Shown here one piece after another: positions 4,462 through 43,774 of a DNA stretch of 64,000 nucleotides. The notes under the pieces are model-generated. The model ran no database searches. It worked only from the letters and a program-made list of their open reading frames with translations, and was not told the DNA's origin. The position numbers were made by a program, and so were the translations under genes. The stretch comes from Corynebacterium freneyi (GTDB lineage: Bacteria > Actinomycetota > Actinomycetes > Mycobacteriales > Mycobacteriaceae), in contig NZ_CP047357.1 of assembly GCF_030408835.1 (NCBI RefSeq), positions 1,116,001 to 1,180,000 of the forward strand, read 5' to 3'. The stretch's first letter is position 1. Each line of letters starts with the position of its first letter.

Positions 4462-5456
<995 letters not shown>

Positions 5457-10089: not shown

Positions 10090-11934
10090 CTAATCGACGA
10101 TGCGGACCGCACCCTTGTCGGCGCTGGACGCCATCTTCGCGTAGGCGCGCAGGGCCTTGGAGACCTTGCGCGGGCGTTCCTTGCGCGGGGTGAAGGGCTT
10201 GTCGCGCTTGAGCTCCTCTTCGCGGCGGCGGGCCAGCTCGGCGTCGTCGACCTGGATTTCCAGGCGACGTTCGGCGACGTCGATGTAGACGGGGTCGCCG
10301 TCGCGGACCAAGGCGATGTCGCCGCCGGCCGCGGCCTCGGGGGAGATGTGGCCGATGGACAGGCCCGAGGAGCCGCCGGAGAAACGGCCGTCGGTGACCA
10401 GGGCGCACACCTTGCCCAGGCCCGCGCCCTTGATGAAGGCGGTCGGGTGCAGCATCTCCTGCATGCCCGGGCCGCCGGCGGGGCCCTCGTAGAGGACGAA
10501 GAGGACCTCGCCCGGTTGGAGGGTGCGGTTGAGGATCACCGATACGGCCTCCTCCTGGCTTTCCACGACGCGGGCGGTGCCCTCGAAGTGGAACTGGTCC
10601 TCGGAGATGCCGGCGGTCTTCAGGATCGCGCCGTCGCGTGCGATGTTGCCGCGCAGCACGCACAGGCCGCCCTCGGCGGTGTAGGCGTGGTCGACGGAGC
10701 GGATGCAGCCGTTTTCGGCGTCGACGTCGAGCGATTCCCAGCGGTTTTCCGTCGAGAACGGCTCGGTGGTGCGCACGCCACCCGGTGCGGCGTGGAAAAG
10801 TTCGATCGCCTCGTCGGTGGCGGAGCCACCGCGGATGTCCCAGTCGTCGAGCTGCTTTTCCAGCGACGGGGCGTGGACGGAGTTGGCGCCCATGTTCAGC
10901 AGGCCGCCGCGACGCAGCTCGCCCATGATGGCGGGGATGCCGCCGGCGCGGTGGACGTGCTCCATGTAGTAATCGGAATTCGGCGCCACCTTGGACAGGC
11001 AGGGCACGCGACGGGAGATTTCGTCGATGTCGGCGAGGTCGAAGTCGATCTCGCCCTCCTGCGCGGCGGCGAGGATGTGCAGCACCGTGTTGGTGGAGCC
11101 GCCCATGGCCACGTCGAGGGTCATGGCGTTGACGAAGGCGTCGCGGTTGGCGACGTTGCGCGGCAGCACCGACTCGTCGCCGTCGTGGTAGTAGCGGTTG
11201 GCCAGGTCGACGATGAGTTCGCCGGCGCGGGTGAACAGGTCGCGGCGGGCGACTTGGGTGGCCAGGGTGGAACCGTTGCCGGGCAGCGACAGGCCCAGGG
11301 CCTCGGTGAGGCAGTTCATGGAGTTGGCGGTGAACATGCCGGAGCAGGAGCCGCAGGTCGGGCAGGCGGAACGTTCGATGTCGAGCAGCTGATCGTCGTT
11401 GACGCCGTCGTTGGCGGAGGCCGAGATCGCCGAAATCAGGTCCGATCCGGGCTTGACGACGCCGTCGATGACGACGGAGGAGCCGGATTCCATGGGGCCG
11501 CCGGAGACGAACACGACGGGGATGTTCAGCCGCAGCGCCGCGTTGAGCATGCCCGGGGTGATCTTGTCGCAGTTGGAGATGCACACCAGGGCGTCGGCGG
11601 TGTGGGCGTTGACCATGTACTCGACGGAGTCGGCGATGATTTCGCGGGACGGCAGCGAGTAGAGCATGCCGTCGTGGCCCATCGCGATGCCGTCGTCGAC
11701 GGCGATGGTGTTGAACTCGCGGGGAACGCCGCCGGCGGCGACGACCGCTTCCGCGACGATGTCGCCGACGTTCTTGAGGTGCACGTGTCCGGGCACGAAC
11801 TGGGTGTAGGAGTTCGCGATGGCGATGATCGGCTTGCCGAAGTCGCTGTCGGTCATGCCGGTGGCGCGCCACAGCGAACGGGCGCCCGCGGCGTTGCGGC
11901 CGGCGGTGGTGACCTTGGAACGAAGGGGGATCAT
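10090..11934 (-). CDS. ilvD: Dihydroxy-acid dehydratase
   Basis: A 614-residue protein, the length usual for corynebacterial IlvD. It dehydrates 2,3-dihydroxy-isovalerate and -methylvalerate to 2-keto acids in valine and isoleucine synthesis and needs an Fe-S cluster. Visible family motifs are CDKITPGML and [19 protein letters not shown] with the cluster-ligand cysteines, GGPMESG, and the C-terminal [17 protein letters not shown] 11934 is chosen because the mature IlvD N-terminus ([10 protein letters not shown]) begins there with GAGAGGAA upstream; the open frame extends further. The gene stands alone, but its upstream region holds the same 15-bp palindrome found in the ilvB promoter. Confidence 0.95.
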
Positions 11935-12021
11935 GGCTGCCCCATTCCTCTCTGGTAGGCGGCGATTTCTTCCGATGATAGACGCCGCACGCGGCGGTTG
12001 TCCCACCGGGCGGACTTATGT

Positions 12022-12036
12022 GTCCACTATGTGGAC
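12022..12036. promoter_or_regulatory. 15-bp palindromic operator candidate upstream of ilvD
   Basis: GTCCACTATGTGGAC is a perfect inverted repeat (GTCCAC / GTGGAC around TAT), 87 bp upstream of the ilvD start. An identical site lies between the -35 and -10 of ilvB at 14652-14666. Shared placement before two genes of one pathway suggests a common regulator; its identity is unknown (an IclR-type regulator such as LtbR is one candidate). Confidence 0.6.
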
Positions 12037-12043
12037 GGAGAAA

Positions 12044-12072
12044 AACCCGCCCGGCACAATGCCGGGCGGGTT
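12044..12072 (-). terminator. Rho-independent terminator after the cfp6-like gene
   Basis: The stem AACCCGCCCGGC (12044-12055) and GCCGGGCGGGTT (12061-12072) with a 5-nt loop reads into a T run on the minus strand, 19 nt beyond the stop of the gene ending at 12092. It separates that gene from ilvD. Confidence 0.85.
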
Positions 12073-12091
12073 CGCATGAGGTCCGTGAGGC

Positions 12092-12667
12092 CTACTCCTT
12101 CGGGGCCTCGTCGGCCTTGTCAGCCTTGCCGGCTTTGTCGGCTCTGGCCCGGGCGGCCGCCTCATAGGTGGCGTACTCCTCGCGGGTCATCTTGACGGAT
12201 TTGCCGTCGCGGTCGAAGACCTCCACCTTCTCGTCGTCGGCCAGTCGGGCCGGGGTGACGGGGTCGGGGATCCGGCCGTCGGTCGCCTCGCTCAGGGCGG
12301 GCAGGGAATTGAAGGTGATGGCCGGCAGCGCGAAGCGGACGTCATCGTCTTCCGCGCCGTCCGTGGAGCGGCCCACCGCGTAGGCCCGGCCCCGCTTGTC
12401 GAACAGCACGCCCCGGAAGCGGTTCCACGGCAGCGAACGGCGGCCGCCGAGGAAATACACGGCGGTGATGCCGCGGGAGCTGACCGTGGTGCGCACCCGC
12501 AGAATCCACAGGGCGTAGACCACCGGCACCAGCAGCAGCGGGGACAGCCACAGGGAGAAGCCCATCGCCACGATCGCCAGGAACACCAGGAAGGTCACGG
12601 CCAAAAAGTGCGTCTTCTGGGGACGGAAGCGGGTCGTGGGCAGCGCGGTCGGCTGATCGTTGCTCAT
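12092..12667 (-). CDS. PH-domain membrane protein, Cfp6-like
   Basis: A 191-residue protein. Two hydrophobic segments at about residues 22-60 (FLAVTFLVFLAIVAMGFSLWL and LLLVPVVYALWIL) are followed by a bacterial PH-like fold containing VRTTVSSRGITAVYFLGGRRSLPWNRF, whose Ser-Leu-Pro-Trp turn is typical of low-molecular-weight antigen 6 (Cfp6, PF10756). The C-terminal 25 residues are a Lys/Ala/Asp tail with KADKADEA repeats. Function is unknown. It lies 50 nt downstream of the mechanosensitive channel gene on the same strand, so the two may share a transcript. Its position near ilvB matches mycobacterial gene order. Confidence 0.8.
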   Translation of the reverse strand: MSNDQPTALPTTRFRPQKTHFLAVTFLVFLAIVAMGFSLWLSPLLLVPVVYALWILRVRTTVSSRGITAVYFLGGRRSLPWNRFRGVLFDKRGRAYAVGRSTDGAEDDDVRFALPAITFNSLPALSEATDGRIPDPVTPARLADDEKVEVFDRDGKSVKMTREEYATYEAAARARADKAGKADKADEAPKE

Positions 12668-12717
12668 GGGGGCTCATTGTAGGGCCACGGTGCGCGCCCG
12701 CGGCACTCGGCCCGCGC

Positions 12718-14532
12718 CTAGTTCGACGCGGTGCCGCCGCCCCCGGTGCCGGAGTTCGCGCCCGCGTCCGCGCCGGTGCCGGTTCCGGTGCCGGTGTCGC
12801 CGGTGCCCGTGTCGCCGGTGTTGCCGGTGTTGCCGGAGTTTCCGGTATTCCCGGAGTCGCCGGTATTTCCGGAGTTGTCGGTATTGCCGGTGTTGCCCCC
12901 GTCGCCGGTGTTGCCGGTGCCGGCGTCGGTGCCCTGCTGGCCGCGGCCGCCGTCCGGTTGGCTCGGCGCGTCGGTCGGAGCGGTGGTGGTGGCGCCGCCC
13001 GTGCCGGTGTTGCCCGATCCCGTGCCGGTGCCGACGTCGGTGCCGTCGTCGTCGGCTTCCTCGTCGCCGCCGGTGAATCGGCTCGGAGCCAGCCAACCGG
13101 CGACGCCCTCTTCGCCCTCGCCGGGCTCGACGGTGGCGAGGTTGAGCATTCCCAGGATCAGGAGGGTCACCAGCAACACGACCGTCGACGGCCGCGCCCG
13201 TCCGCCGGCCGACAGGATCCGGCGCACGCGCTGGCGCTTCGACAACTCGGACCACGCGACCCGGTCGGTCGCCGTGGCCTGCTCGTCGGAGTCATCGGCA
13301 TCGGCGTCGACGGCCGGCGCCACCTTCGTCTCGTCGAGATCGGCGGAGTCGGAACCGTCGGAGTCGTCGGCGTCACGAGCTTTGCGACGCCGCTCGTCGA
13401 GTGCGGCGCCCGCGGACGGAAGATCGCTGCGGCGACGATCGTCGTCGTCAAGCGAACCGGAGGTAGACTGCGCCTGCTTCGCCGAATTCGCCTGCTCGAC
13501 CTCGAGGGAACCGGTGCCGCGATTCGATCCGGGCGTCGAGCCGCCGGCGTCGACGAAGGTCGTCGTCTTCGCATCGTCGCCGGAAGAATCCGGTCGAATG
13601 ACGGGGGAGCGGCGCATGCCCTGATCCGGCGACGCCGACAGTGCGCTCAACTGTGCGGTGAGGGCCTCGGTCTGACGCAGCGGATTCGCCTCCGCGCGCT
13701 CGCCGTAATCGTCCCACCACGTGTCGATGATCTCCGACCGCACCGCACGTTCGATCAGCCACTGGTCGCCCGGGTCGCAGTCGGCGATCAGACGCATGGT
13801 CACCGTCCACGGCAGGCCCATCGCCGTGGGGGCGACCAGCTGCGTCGAGGACTGGATGCGGATCTCCGACAGGACGTGCTCGCGCACGCCTTCCGCCGCG
13901 ACCGCGCGCTTGGCGGCCTCCAACGTACGTTCCTCCAGATCGCGCACCGAACCGCCGGCCGTCATGGGCACCGGAATCTCGATGACCGCGCGCGACCACC
14001 GCGACGAGTAGTTCACGCACATGCGGGCCTCGGAGTTCGGGACCACGATCTCCTCGCCGTTGAGCGTGCGGATCGTCGTCGCGCGGAGCGTCATGTTGAC
14101 GACGTCGCCCTGCACCGTGCCGCTGGGGGAATGGAACTCGACCCAGTCGCCGATGCCGTACTGCTTCTCCGCGATGATGAATACGCCGCCGATCAAGTCG
14201 CCGATGACTCCCTGCGCGCCGAAACCGATCGCAGCCGAGATGACCGTCGCTGGAATCGCCGCCGCCGTCAGCGATACGCCGAACTGATTGAGCAGGGCGA
14301 TGCCGAGGACGAAGTAGGCGACCATCTCGACGAGGTAGACCACCGCGCCGATCAATGCGCGGCGCCCCTTCGTCGACTCCTCGCCGTCGGTCATGTTGGA
14401 TGTGGCCACGGCGATGACGAATCGCCGGATCCGTGGGACGAGGACCAGAAGGATCAGCAGCGCGGCGATGGACAAGCCGTGTGCGGCGATCCATGCCCAC
14501 GAGCGCTGCAATAGATATAGAAGGAAGTCCAT
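12718..14532 (-). CDS. MscS-type mechanosensitive channel with extended C-terminus, MscCG-like
   Basis: A 604-residue protein from ATG 14532 (an in-frame GTG at 14541 adds three residues). Three N-terminal membrane segments end in the MscS pore helix (AAIGFGAQGVIGDLIGGVFIIAEKQ), followed by the MscS beta domain (IGDWVEF, NSEARM) to about residue 280. A disordered Ser/Asp-rich cytosolic linker follows, then a fourth membrane helix (STVVLLVTLLILGMLNLA, about 447-468). This architecture matches MscCG (NCgl1221/YggB) of C. glutamicum, which releases solutes and exports glutamate on membrane tension. Beyond the fourth helix is a 136-residue tail with Gly-X-Thr/Ser triplets, predicted to lie outside the membrane. 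The gene is divergent from ilvBNC. Confidence 0.85.
   Translation of the reverse strand: MDFLLYLLQRSWAWIAAHGLSIAALLILLVLVPRIRRFVIAVATSNMTDGEESTKGRRALIGAVVYLVEMVAYFVLGIALLNQFGVSLTAAAIPATVISAAIGFGAQGVIGDLIGGVFIIAEKQYGIGDWVEFHSPSGTVQGDVVNMTLRATTIRTLNGEEIVVPNSEARMCVNYSSRWSRAVIEIPVPMTAGGSVRDLEERTLEAAKRAVAAEGVREHVLSEIRIQSSTQLVAPTAMGLPWTVTMRLIADCDPGDQWLIERAVRSEIIDTWWDDYGERAEANPLRQTEALTAQLSALSASPDQGMRRSPVIRPDSSGDDAKTTTFVDAGGSTPGSNRGTGSLEVEQANSAKQAQSTSGSLDDDDRRRSDLPSAGAALDERRRKARDADDSDGSDSADLDETKVAPAVDADADDSDEQATATDRVAWSELSKRQRVRRILSAGGRARPSTVVLLVTLLILGMLNLATVEPGEGEEGVAGWLAPSRFTGGDEEADDDGTDVGTGTGSGNTGTGGATTTAPTDAPSQPDGGRGQQGTDAGTGNTGDGGNTGNTDNSGNTGDSGNTGNSGNTGNTGDTGTGDTGTGTGTGADAGANSGTGGGGTASN
12782..12926 (-). 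repeat. Short-period coding repeat, Gly-X-Thr/Ser triplets in the channel tail
   Basis: On the minus strand, units close to GGCAACACC and GGAAACTCC repeat with 9-bp period and encode GNT, GDS and GNS triplets. This explains the low-complexity DNA; it is coding repeat and not a CRISPR array. Tracts of this kind can vary in copy number between strains. Confidence 0.8.
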
Positions 14533-14629
14533 GGGCGCCACGGTAGGGACGCAGACTTAGAGGACGCTGAGGCGCGAGGCATAATGTGCGGGAGATCCGC
14601 GCACGCCGCGGGTGGTCGCGGCGGGTGGT

Positions 14630-14645
14630 GTCCAACTATGTGGGA
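14630..14645. promoter_or_regulatory. Degenerate upstream copy of the ilv palindrome
   Basis: GTCCAACTATGTGGGA contains the core CTATGTGG with imperfect arms. Its core is 21 bp (two helical turns) upstream of the core of the perfect palindrome at 14652-14666, so a regulator could occupy both on one DNA face. Confidence 0.4.
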
Positions 14646-14674
14646 TTGACTGTCCACTATGTGGACGCTAGTCT
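14646..14674 (+). promoter_or_regulatory. ilvB promoter with palindromic operator in the spacer
   Basis: TTGACT (14646-14651) and TAGTCT (14669-14674) fit -35 and -10 elements with a 17-bp spacer. The spacer contains the perfect palindrome GTCCACTATGTGGAC at 14652-14666. A protein bound there would block RNA polymerase, so repression is the simplest reading (inference). The start codon of ilvB is about 100 nt downstream. Confidence 0.6.
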
Positions 14675-14773
14675 CGGAAGGGACATGGGACGCCGGTGAT
14701 GCCCCACCACGGGCGCATTCGGCGGCCCATCGTGCTCGGACCCGCCCGTACCCGACTACAGGAGCGCACCGGA

Positions 14774-16684
14774 ATGAACGCCGCCCCACAGAACAGCCCC
14801 TCGCCCGCCACCGTGGCCGCACAGACGCGCCGCACGACGCCCGAGCGCATCACCGGCGCCAAGGCCATCGTCCGGTCCCTCGAGGAGCTTGGCGCGGACG
14901 TCGTATTCGGCATTCCGGGCGGCGCGATCCTGCCGCTGTACGACCCCCTGTTCGACTCGGAGAAGATTCGCCACGTGCTGGTCCGCCACGAGCAGGGCGC
15001 CGGCCACGCCGCCACCGGCTACGCGCAGGTCTCCGGCAAGGTCGGCGTGTGCATCGCCACCTCCGGCCCCGGCGCCACCAACCTGGTCACCCCGCTGGCC
15101 GACGCCCAGATGGACTCCGTGCCCGTCGTCGCCATCACCGGCCAGGTCGGCATGCCGCTGCTGGGCTCCGACGCCTTCCAGGAAGCCGACATCCGCGGCG
15201 TGACCATGCCCGTGACCAAGCACAACTTCATGGTCACCGACGCCAACGACATCCCGAAGGCCATCGCCGAGGCGTTCCACCTGGCCTCCACCGGCCGCCC
15301 GGGCGCCGTCCTCGTCGACGTGCCGAAGGACCTGCAGAACACCGAGATCGACTTCGTCTGGCCGCCGGAGGTGGACCTGCCGGGCTACCGCCCGGTGACC
15401 ACCCCGCACTCCCGCCAGATCGAGGAGGCCGTGCGCATGATCGCCGCGGCCGAGCGCCCGGTGCTCTACGTCGGCGGCGGCGTCATCAAGGCCGATGCCT
15501 CGGCCGAGCTGCTGGCGTTCGCCGAGCTCACCGGCGTGCCGGTCGTCACCACCCTCATGGCCCGCGGCGCGTTCCCGGACTCCCACGAGCTGCACATGGG
15601 CATGCCGGGCATGCACGGCAAGGTGTCCGCCGTCGCCGCCCTGCAGAAGTCGGACCTGCTCATCACCATCGGCGCGCGTTTCGACGACCGCGTCACCGGT
15701 CAGCTGTCCACCTTCGCGCCGCACGCCAAGGTCATCCACGCCGACATCGACCCGGCCGAGATCGGCAAGATCCGCGAGGCCCACGTGCCCATCGTCGGCG
15801 ACGCCCGCGAGGTTCTGGCCGCGCTTGCCGACGCCTACCGCGACCTGGACCTCCCGGCCCCGTCGATCGCCCCGTGGCTGCGCGAGCTCAACGAGCTGCG
15901 CGACGACTTCCCGCTCGGCTGGGAGGAGCACGCCGACGGGTCGCTGTCCCCGCAGTTCGTGCTGAAGACCCTGTCGGAGGTCGTCGGCCCGGACGCCATC
16001 TACTGCGCCGGCGTCGGCCAGCACCAGATGTGGGCCGCCCAGTTCATCCAGTACGAGAACCCGCGCACCTGGCTCAACTCCGGTGGCCTGGGCACCATGG
16101 GCTACGCCGTGCCGGCCGCGATGGGCGCCAAGGCCGCCGCTCCGGACAGGGAAGTCTGGGCCGTCGACGGCGACGGTTGCTTCCAGATGACCAACCAGGA
16201 GCTGACCACCTCCGCCATCGAGCACTTCCCGATCAAGGTCGCCCTGATCAACAACGGCAACCTGGGCATGGTGCGCCAGTGGCAGACGCTGTTCTACGAG
16301 GAGCGTTACTCCAACACGAAGCTGCGTCCGGAGGACAACTCCTACGTGCCGGACTTCGTGCGCCTGTCCGAGGGCCTGGGTTGCGTGGCCATCCGCGTGA
16401 CCAAGGAAGAGGAGGTCATCCCGGCCATCCAGAAGGCGCGGGAGATCAACGACCGCCCGGTGGTCATCGACTTCATCGTCGGCGAGGACGCCCAGGTGTG
16501 GCCGATGGTCGCCGCCGGCAAGTCCAACGACGAGATCGAGTCGGCCCGCGGCCTGCGTCCGCTTTTCGACGAAGACATGTCGGCGGGGGAGTCCCCGGCG
16601 GACATTCACGAAACGATGGCGGACAACGTCGAGGACGCCGCGAAGGCGCCCGAGGCCAACCACCCGACCATGCAGACCCGGTAA
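14774..16684 (+). CDS. ilvB: Acetolactate synthase large (catalytic) subunit
   Basis: A 636-residue ThDP enzyme that condenses pyruvate to acetolactate (or with 2-ketobutyrate to acetohydroxybutyrate), first common step of branched-chain amino acid synthesis. Visible: [13 protein letters not shown] and the catalytic Glu in [15 protein letters not shown] at the N-terminus, and the ThDP/Mg motif [12 protein letters not shown] ending in NN near the C-terminus. ATG 14774 is preceded by AGGAG; an in-frame ATG at 14696 would give a longer N-terminus unlike the family. It heads ilvBNC, with ilvN 37 nt downstream. The 5' leader is short and shows no run of branched-chain codons, so attenuation of the C. 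glutamicum type is not evident; control by the palindromic operator is more likely. Confidence 0.95.
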
Positions 16685-16721: not shown

Positions 16722-17231
16722 ATGGCCGAACTGCACACCCTGTCCGTGCTGACCCTCGACGAGCCGGGCATCCTGGTCCGCATCGCGGGCATGTTCACCC
16801 GCCGCGGGTTCAGCATCCAGTCCATCACCTCGGGCACCACCGAGGTGGAGGGAGTCAACCGCATCACCCTGGTGGTTGAGACGGAAAATCTGCCCATCGA
16901 GCAGATCACCAAGCAGCTGAACAAGCTGGTGCCGGTGCTCAAGGTCGTCCGCCAGCCGGACGATCAGCTGGTGTCGCGCGCGCTGCTGCTGGTCAAGGTC
17001 ACGGCGGACAACAACAACCGTCCGCAGGTGGTCGACGCGGCGAAGCTGTTCCGCGCCCGCGTCGTCGACGTGGCGCAGGAGTCCGTGGTCATCGAGGCCA
17101 CGGGCGAGCGTTCGAAGCTGCGCGCCCTGCTGGAGGTTCTCGAGCCGTTCGGCATCCGCGAGCTGGTGCAGTCCGGCGTCGTCGCGGTGGCCCGCGGCCC
17201 GAAGCCGATGCTGGCGTCCCGGGCGCTGTAA
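16722..17231 (+). CDS. ilvN: Acetolactate synthase small (regulatory) subunit
   Basis: A 169-residue protein. It starts with an ACT domain (HTLSVLTLDEPGILVRIAGM, then RRGFSIQSIT) that binds valine and transmits feedback inhibition to IlvB. The C-terminal half (RALLLVKV, VIEATGERSKLRALLEVL) is the activating domain. Length and sequence are standard for IlvN. It lies 37 nt after ilvB and about 100 nt before ilvC in the same orientation, with GAGGAAAGGGAAG upstream of ATG 16722. Confidence 0.95.
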   Translation: MAELHTLSVLTLDEPGILVRIAGMFTRRGFSIQSITSGTTEVEGVNRITLVVETENLPIEQITKQLNKLVPVLKVVRQPDDQLVSRALLLVKVTADNNNRPQVVDAAKLFRARVVDVAQESVVIEATGERSKLRALLEVLEPFGIRELVQSGVVAVARGPKPMLASRAL

Positions 17232-17255: not shown

Positions 17256-18347
<1,092 letters not shown>

Positions 18348-42645: not shown

Positions 42646-42674
42646 CGCCACCACCGTGACCCCGCCAATCTCAT

Positions 42675-42701
42675 TTGGTAGGATTGCCGCGTCCATATAG
42701 T
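42675..42701 (+). promoter_or_regulatory. Probable leuB promoter
   Basis: TTGGTA (42675-42680) and TATAGT (42696-42701) fit -35 and -10 elements with a 15-bp spacer, slightly short. GTCCATATAGTG at 42691-42702 partly resembles the ilv palindrome and covers the -10. GAGAAGGGA before ATG 42722 is the ribosome site. Confidence 0.4.
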
Positions 42702-42721
42702 GAGAAGGGATCCCCGCGACA

Positions 42722-43774
42722 ATGAGCGACACCACCGCCACCACCGGCCCGCTGAAGATCGCCGTCATCGACGGCGACGGCATCGGCACCGAGGTCACCG
42801 CCGAGGCCCTCAAGGTCCTCCGCGCGACCATCGGCGACTTCGAGACCACCGAGTACGACCTGGGCGCCCGCCGCTACGAGCGCAACGGCGAGCTGCTCAC
42901 CGACGCCGACCTCGACAGCCTGCGCGAACATGACGCGATCCTCCTGGGCGCCATCGGCGACCCGCGCAAGGTGCCGCCGGGGGTCCTCGAGCGCGGGCTG
43001 CTGCTCAAGATGCGCTTCGCCCTCGACCACCACGTCAACCTGCGCCCGTCGAAGCTGTACCCGGGCGTCGAATCCCCGCTGAAGAACCCGGGCGACATCG
43101 ACTTCGTCGTCGTCCGCGAGGGCACCGAGGGCGCCTACACCGGCAACGGTGGCGCCATCCGCGTCGGCACGCCCCAGGAGGTGGCCAACGAAACCTCGGT
43201 CAACACCCGCTTCGGCGCCGAGCGCGTGGTCCGCTACGCCTTCGACCTGGCCATGACCCGCCGCAAGAAGCTCACCCTGGTGCACAAGAGCAACGTGCTC
43301 GTCTACGGTGGTGGCCTGTGGCAGCGCACCGTCGACGAGGTCGCGCGGGAGTACCCCGAGGTCACCGTCGACTACAGCCACATCGACGCCGCGACCATCT
43401 ACATGGTCACCCAGCCGTCGCGCTTCGACGTCATCGTCACCGACAACCTCTTCGGCGACATCATCACCGACGAGGCCGGGGCGATCTCCGGCGGAATCGG
43501 CCTCGCCGCGTCCGCCAACATCGACGCTTCCCGCACGAACCCCTCCATGTTCGAGCCGGTCCACGGTTCCGCCCCGGACATCGCGGGCCAGGGCATCGCC
43601 GACCCGACCGCGGCGATCCTCTCCGGCGCGATGATGCTGCGCCACCTCGGCCGCGAGGACGACGCCGCCCGCATCGAGCGTGCCGTGGAGGCCGACGTCG
43701 CCGCCCGCGGTGACGCTCCCATCGTCACCTCCGAAGTCGGAGACCGCATCGCGGTCGCCGTCGCGCAGGGGTAG
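42722..43774 (+). CDS. leuB: 3-isopropylmalate dehydrogenase
   Basis: A 350-residue isocitrate/isopropylmalate dehydrogenase family enzyme that oxidises and decarboxylates 3-isopropylmalate in leucine synthesis. Visible: [38 protein letters not shown] (substrate-binding arginines), [44 protein letters not shown] (Mg-binding Asp), and [19 protein letters not shown] (NAD site). It stands alone; other leu genes are not in the window. Confidence 0.95.

Follow-up and report, generated by a model that had tools for sequence, protein, structure and literature searches.

The stretch analysed here, referred to as the window, comprises 64,000 nucleotides of the single-contig, 2.88-Mb genome of Corynebacterium freneyi (NZ_CP047357.1, positions 1116001–1180000) and carries genes of branched-chain amino acid biosynthesis, namely ilvD, ilvBNC, and leuB. 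The first of these lie in the order ilvD, PH-domain protein gene, MscS-like channel gene, and ilvBNC, which we take to be that of Corynebacterium glutamicum. A 15-bp inverted repeat, GTCCACTATGTGGAC, is present in identical form before ilvD (12022–12036) and before ilvB (14652–14666), just where the initial annotation of the window had placed it. Its description there as a perfect palindrome holds for the two 6-bp arms, GTCCAC and GTGGAC, but not for the central TAT, which is asymmetric. Here, we report that this 15-mer, judged from its sequence, is very probably a docking site of LtbR, the IclR-family regulator called NdgR in Streptomyces, and that it is paired with a second site at both promoters.

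Results

Tandem sites at the ilvB, ilvD, and leuB promoters

At ilvB, the promoter elements TTGACT and TAGTCT are separated by a 17-bp spacer that holds the palindrome, as had been annotated, with 15 of the 17 bases occupied by the palindrome (operator 2) and GC preceding TAGTCT (Table 1). The degenerate upstream copy noticed earlier was also recovered as TCCAACTATGTGGGA (operator 1), the centre of which is 21 bp upstream of that of operator 2. Since one site lies in the spacer and both abut the −35 box, bound LtbR would shut out RNA polymerase. A search of the whole genome for the pattern GTCCAYNTRGTGRAC gave two perfect matches, the ilvD and ilvB sites, and GTCCACTATGTGGAC is the sole inverted repeat of the 6-3-6 type whose 15-mer is present twice in the window.

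Table 1. Predicted operators, promoter elements, and genes in the window
Feature	Sequence	Positions	Strand	Remarks
ilvD, dihydroxy-acid dehydratase		10090–11934	−	NF009103, 1050 bits
Likely ilvD promoter	GGGACA-18-TATCAT	11975–12004	−	Consensus scan only
ilvD operator 2	TCCCACCGGGCGGAC	12001–12015		21 bp from operator 1; pair score 16.5; overlaps likely ilvD −35
ilvD operator 1	GTCCACTATGTGGAC (GTCCACATAGTGGAC on ilvD strand)	12022–12036		LtbR matrix 12.8, rank 5 tied; NdgR matrix maximum
ilvB operator 1	TCCAACTATGTGGGA	14631–14645		LtbR matrix 13.2, window rank 4; site here in 7/7 clade genomes
ilvB −35	TTGACT	14646–14651	+	Fills exact 6-bp gap between operators; identical in 7/7 clade genomes
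ilvB operator 2	GTCCACTATGTGGAC	14652–14666		LtbR matrix 12.8, rank 5 tied; S. coelicolor NdgR matrix 17.9 (maximum), rank 1 tied
ilvB −10	TAGTCT	14669–14674	+	TANNNT in 7/7 clade genomes
ilvB, acetolactate synthase large subunit		14774–16684	+	NF005860, 1108 bits
ilvN, acetolactate synthase small subunit		16722–17231	+	TIGR00119
ilvC, ketol-acid reductoisomerase		17265–18347	+	TIGR00465
leuB operator 1	TCTCATTTGGTAGGA	42669–42683		LtbR matrix 15.2, rank 2; overlaps likely −10 TAGGAT
leuB operator 2	GTCCATATAGTGAGA	42691–42705		LtbR matrix 18.6, rank 1; 22 bp from operator 1
leuB, 3-isopropylmalate dehydrogenase		42722–43774	+	NF002898

The sites were scored with an LtbR matrix, a palindromic 15-bp motif obtained by expectation maximisation from the ltbR–leuC (57 of 64 sequences) and leuB (61 of 68) promoters of other species, with the ilv genes and the seven-genome clade of the window (see below) excluded from training. 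The two promoter sets yielded a common frame, TYYCAYnnnRTGRRA, which matches that of the ilv sites. Five of the six top matches in the window are the leuB sites (ranks 1 and 2), the two ilvB sites (4 and tied 5), and the palindrome at ilvD (tied 5). To control for the possibility that such a matrix rewards palindromes in general, we scored every perfect 6-3-6 inverted repeat (282 in total) found in 464 kb of the same genome; only the two ilv copies reached at least 12.7, the next value being 12.38.

Tandem pairs were called at a pair score of at least 14, with each site scoring at least 2 and a spacing of 20–23 bp, a rule chosen after the window's own scores had been seen. It returned three pairs in the window, at leuB (42669/42691), ilvB (14631/14652), and ilvD (12001/12022), and one at ltbR–leuC, compared with none in a background of twenty 20-kb stretches (400 kb) of the same genome. 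The spacing was 21 bp at ilvB, ilvD, and ltbR–leuC and 22 bp at leuB. The second copies at ilvD (12001) and leuB (42669) are absent from the initial annotation, in which the leuB site had been regarded as a weaker relative overlapping the likely −10 box. By the LtbR matrix, that site, GTCCATATAGTGAGA, is instead the top-scoring one in the window, and it lies just downstream of the likely −10 box TAGGAT (42679–42684, by eye), the overlap being made by the second leuB site. Furthermore, GTCCATATAGTGAGA contains CATATAGTGAGA, which fits CA(T/C)ATAGTGAGA, the 12-bp motif reported for LtbR.

A second matrix was derived from 18 motifs under NdgR peaks of chromatin immunoprecipitation sequencing (ChIP-seq) in Streptomyces coelicolor (PMC4340878) and was made symmetric with the centre three positions unscored. 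Both ilv palindromes reached its maximum of 17.9, which nothing in the 400-kb background did, whereas it ranked the weaker ilvB copy 523rd and leuB 62nd. Thus, agreement between the two holds for the ilv palindromes but does not extend to all sites. On either of its strands, the ilv site also matches, by hand count, 14 of 15 positions of the NdgR/LtbR motif KTYCRSMWYSYGRRM, which has been published together with a tandem spacing of 18–22 nt for the IclR family in 94 orthologous groups (PMC8222616).

Conservation and the regulator gene

The genus sample comprised 81 genomes, of which 61 were used for ilvB and ilvD, 68 for leuB, 65 for ltbR, and 64 for leuC. Second sites were strongly enriched at a distance of 21–22 bp at leuC, leuB, and ilvB and of 21 bp at ilvD. 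By a looser pair rule, 24 of 61 ilvB and 7 of 61 ilvD upstream regions were paired, as opposed to 0–1 per shuffle in five shuffles. These ilv counts, like those for the clade, are out-of-sample for the LtbR matrix; those of leuB and leuC pairs in non-clade genomes are in-sample. Among other actinobacteria, for which at least 80 ilvB loci were listed (two of them titled Corynebacterium), 8 of the 78 scored loci had pairs against 0.6 expected from shuffles.

In a quick tree of IlvD proteins, the window genome and six others stand on one side of a fully supported branch (Shimodaira–Hasegawa-like approximate likelihood ratio 100). Tandem sites are present at ilvB as well as ilvD in every one of the seven, whereas an ilvD pair was found in none of the 54 genomes outside this clade. 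The ilvB block, consisting of a site, TTGACT, a site, two bases, and TANNNT, is kept in all seven, and mean identity over the clade was 0.81–1.0 in the sites and the −35 box versus 0.54–0.56 in the flanks, the rows being anchored on the pair, which favours the sites. The first site begins 133–338 bases before ilvB in the 17 non-clade genomes with ilvB pairs; in 11 of these compared by hand, the centre of the second site is approximately 48–87 bases before the leader start in 10 and approximately 2 bases before it in one (G068), and in one clade genome (G039), it is 23 bases before a leader remnant. On these distances, the clade sites seem to lie nearer the presumed start than in most other genomes.

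The candidate ltbR gene encodes a 241-residue protein on the minus strand (L052:4446–5168), approximately 38 kb beyond the window and divergent from leuC at 5277, after which the next gene reads, by eye, as leuD. The protein has an IclR helix-turn-helix domain (PF09339), which is the top match of this type in the genome, and the C-terminal domain PF01614, and the ltbR–leuC tandem sites are at L052:5163 and 5184. A relative of LtbR is present in all 81 sampled genomes of the genus. Of 30 named actinobacteria reached via other loci, 28 have the regulator divergent from leuC and 27 of those 28 have intergenic tandem sites, these being counts without a shuffled control. No tandem pair was detected around leuA, ilvE, or the best TrpE-like hit, which is below the family cut-off and covers the trp promoter only if that gene starts the trp operon; hence, these genes are not predicted LtbR targets here.

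The ilvB attenuator

In Corynebacterium, ilvBNC is treated as attenuation-controlled and is among the operons targeted in strains that produce valine and leucine (PMC8709942, PMC11857589). Leader peptides of this kind are exemplified by MNILRLVVITERRLP in one genome of our sample (G007) and by MNIIRLVVITTRRLP, reported for Corynebacterium diphtheriae (PMC5784534); like the gene order, the leaders of the sampled genus point to Corynebacterium. A covariance model of the attenuator was built from 24 of 33 candidate leaders, with 9 omitted for odd ends or as near-duplicates; three more genomes (leader score >30, terminator or short span) are outside the model, two of them for length. At least 50 bits were reached in 37 of 61 genomes, 24 of which are training members, corresponding to 37 of the 54 outside the clade and none of the seven inside it. 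In six clade genomes, including that of the window, the ilvB promoter gave no covariance match up to an E value of 10 with default filters. The initial annotation had seen no attenuator leader at ilvB in the window, and the leader-peptide score agrees with the model on this: the best score for a leader peptide rich in branched-chain residues was 21, below the 99% level of shuffled sequences (30). The leader fold was no better than that of shuffles (z 0.22), and a comparison of the window with Rfam at gathering scores gave no family. Transcription would start near 14681, the only separate short ATG frame there reads MGRR, and the ATG at 14699 shares its frame with ilvB (all by eye).

In the remaining clade genome, G039, the same promoter is followed by a weak attenuator match of 31.7 bits (E 1e-4; L193:5720–6020). 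On reading by hand, its leader MQRNRLSVAAGAGR has lost most branched-chain codons; a terminator-like stem is retained, and this decayed attenuator behind an LtbR-type promoter is a possible evolutionary intermediate. By a cruder test, four of the seven clade genomes show a stem and T-run resembling a terminator; the stem is the tandem operator itself in G001 and G056, lies upstream of the promoter in G034, and is the attenuator remnant in G039.

Across the sample, 37 genomes have a strong attenuator, and ilvB operators were present in 7 of these versus 17 of the 24 others (Fisher's P = 1.1e-4; P = 0.005 with the clade removed). A tree-aware test of this inverse link yielded only 2 independent pairs (median P = 1), and an earlier one with leader scores yielded 5 (median P = 1). 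With only 2 independent pairs on the tree, the link is no evidence of a general rule, and avoidance between attenuator and operator as such a rule was rejected, 7 of the 37 genomes carrying both.

Other features of the locus

The region 12041–12070, which separates the PH-domain gene from the ilvD operators, holds an inverted repeat at 12046–12070, CCCGCCCGGC-ACAAT-GCCGGGCGGG, with a T-run on the ilvD strand, as read by eye; it is likely the terminator of the PH-domain gene and is missing from the listing of the consensus scan. Upstream of ilvD in four genomes (G001, G056, G034, and G069; L194, L196, L197, and L198), the tandem operators were seen by eye inside a longer inverted repeat, such as CCCCCAAA...TTTGGGGGCTTTTT in G056, and then a T-run. 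With the operators within such a repeat, the gene upstream seems to have its terminator in the same piece of DNA that holds the ilvD operators. At 12720–13020, the C-terminal part of the MscS-like protein adjacent to ilvB was noted by eye to be a low-complexity, repeat-like coding stretch.

Discussion

It is highly likely, in our assessment, that the palindromes are operators of LtbR, that bound LtbR represses ilvBNC, ilvD, leuB, and leuCD, and that ilvB in this clade operates without an attenuator. The initial annotation had proposed a dedicated repressor of branched-chain amino acid genes. A shared site of repressor type is supported, and the candidate can be named as LtbR/NdgR, but the word dedicated needs qualification, as the same sites are present at leuB and ltbR–leuC.

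The operator type, the tandem spacing, and ilvB and ilvD as targets are already known, from NdgR in Streptomyces and from the IclR family at large. The C. glutamicum LtbR, an IclR-family regulator of leuB, leuCD, and trp, has likewise its gene divergent from leuC. The two systems differ in that ilvB and ilvD sites are not among its reported targets, as far as the accessible portions of the literature on it extend, and in that no tandem site was present here around the TrpE-like hit. As for NdgR of S. coelicolor, its motif is a similar 15-bp imperfect palindrome, [GT]T[CT]CAC[CA][CTA][TC][GC][TC]GGAC, and its ChIP-seq targets include ilvB, ilvD, leuB, and ndgR–leuC (PMC4340878). It differs in being described as an activator, with many targets in sulphur metabolism, and in that the sites at its ilvB and ilvD, taken from the row order of two tables to be TCCCACCCACTTGAC and TTCCACCTTGATCAC, are weaker. 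At seven Streptomyces loci (L071, L074, L080, L083, L084, L088, and L092), a single TCCCACC(C/A)(A/G/C)CTTGAC was observed approximately 236–296 bp before ilvB, which is the NdgR ChIP site; because its right half ends in TTGAC, it may overlap a −35 box. The ilvB-II attenuator, in turn, places the ilvB operon of the same genus under the supply of branched-chain amino acids, but by an RNA mechanism with a leader peptide and a terminator (PMC10272879), and has no strong match in the clade of the window.

Within this clade, what seems new is the targeting of the ilv genes and the apparent loss of the attenuator. In a search of the main texts of a literature collection largely missing subscription papers, we came across neither a description of Corynebacterium LtbR sites at ilvB or ilvD nor one of a clade of this genus without the ilvB attenuator, and a search by motif letters gave only unrelated titles among the matches listed.

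Mechanistically, two LtbR dimers may bind cooperatively to the two 15-bp sites, which are spaced by two helical turns and face the same side of the DNA. The ilvB operators flank the −35 box and fill the spacer, so that RNA polymerase would be excluded there; the operators at leuB would cover the −10 box and the start region, and one of those at ilvD would overlap the −35 box. When the pathway product or its signal drops, LtbR would be released, and ilvBNC, ilvD, leuB, and leuCD would be switched on together. The effector could, as a guess, be a metabolite of the leucine pathway.

Several observations weigh against this interpretation. At 2 mismatches, the looser pattern GTCCACNNNGTGGAC had 515 matches per strand versus 353 for the reversed control; at 1 mismatch, GTCCAYNTRGTGRAC had 6 and 9 versus 13 and 12 for its control. 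Loose forms of the motif thus arise at rates equal or close to those of their controls, which leaves the exact form as the only informative one, and the case rests on that form and on tandem pairing. The ilvD operator 2 alone scores only 3.7. Instead of the T/A preferred by the genus matrix, the ilv sites carry G/C as their outermost bases and therefore score below leuB. The third-ranked LtbR-matrix match in the window (48664) falls within a reading frame, as do the three background matches whose surroundings were inspected, and all four look like chance. Within the sampled genus genomes, pairs are present in only 24 of 61 at ilvB and 7 of 61 at ilvD. Moreover, the role ascribed to NdgR at these genes in S. 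coelicolor is that of an activator (PMC10331944), and deletion of ltbR in a C. glutamicum production strain left acetohydroxyacid synthase activity unchanged (143 to 139 mU/mg; Table 1 of PMC6515235); hence, ilvB control is not to be assumed from C. glutamicum.

An activating role for LtbR at ilvB and ilvD, as reported for NdgR, is unlikely. The ilvD pair, at and upstream of the likely −35 box, would suit activation, but at ilvB, the pair adjoins the −35 box and occupies the spacer of the core promoter, a position that favours polymerase exclusion, and LtbR represses leuB and leuCD in C. glutamicum (PMC6515235; title of PMID 17259312). Binding of the ilvB and ilvD palindromes by a regulator other than LtbR is still less likely. 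The G/C outer bases speak for it, position 1 of the learned motif being G in 0% of the ltbR–leuC and 18% of the leuB weights, but the 15-bp frame and the tandem spacing of 21–22 bp are the same at all four loci, the ilv sites are at the maximum of the NdgR ChIP matrix, and both kinds of half-site are mixed within single sites, as in TCTCACTATGTGGAC at ilvB of four relatives and GTCCATATAGTGAGA at leuB. A separate ilv regulator was rejected on the mixed half-sites and the shared spacing. That the repeat arose by chance, or is a DNA or RNA structure without a regulator, is scarcely credible and was rejected, for although short inverted repeats are common and loose motifs occur at or near control rates, the exact form has only two copies genome-wide, both at ilv promoters, and the block is conserved throughout the clade.

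Returning to LtbR as the repressor, we are inclined to think that control of ilvBNC in one Corynebacterium clade moved from ribosome-mediated attenuation to a repressor at the same promoter while the attenuator decayed, with G039 as the intermediate, and that LtbR sites in the core promoter and at ilvD unite ilvBNC, ilvD, leuB, and leuCD under one protein. In S. coelicolor, substitution of leader codons before ilvB was reportedly without effect (PMC1262725), and the use of LtbR, if true, would bear on why this was so. If the whole clade indeed uses LtbR, it would represent a natural experiment in which an RNA switch was replaced by a protein repressor, with the intermediate still visible.

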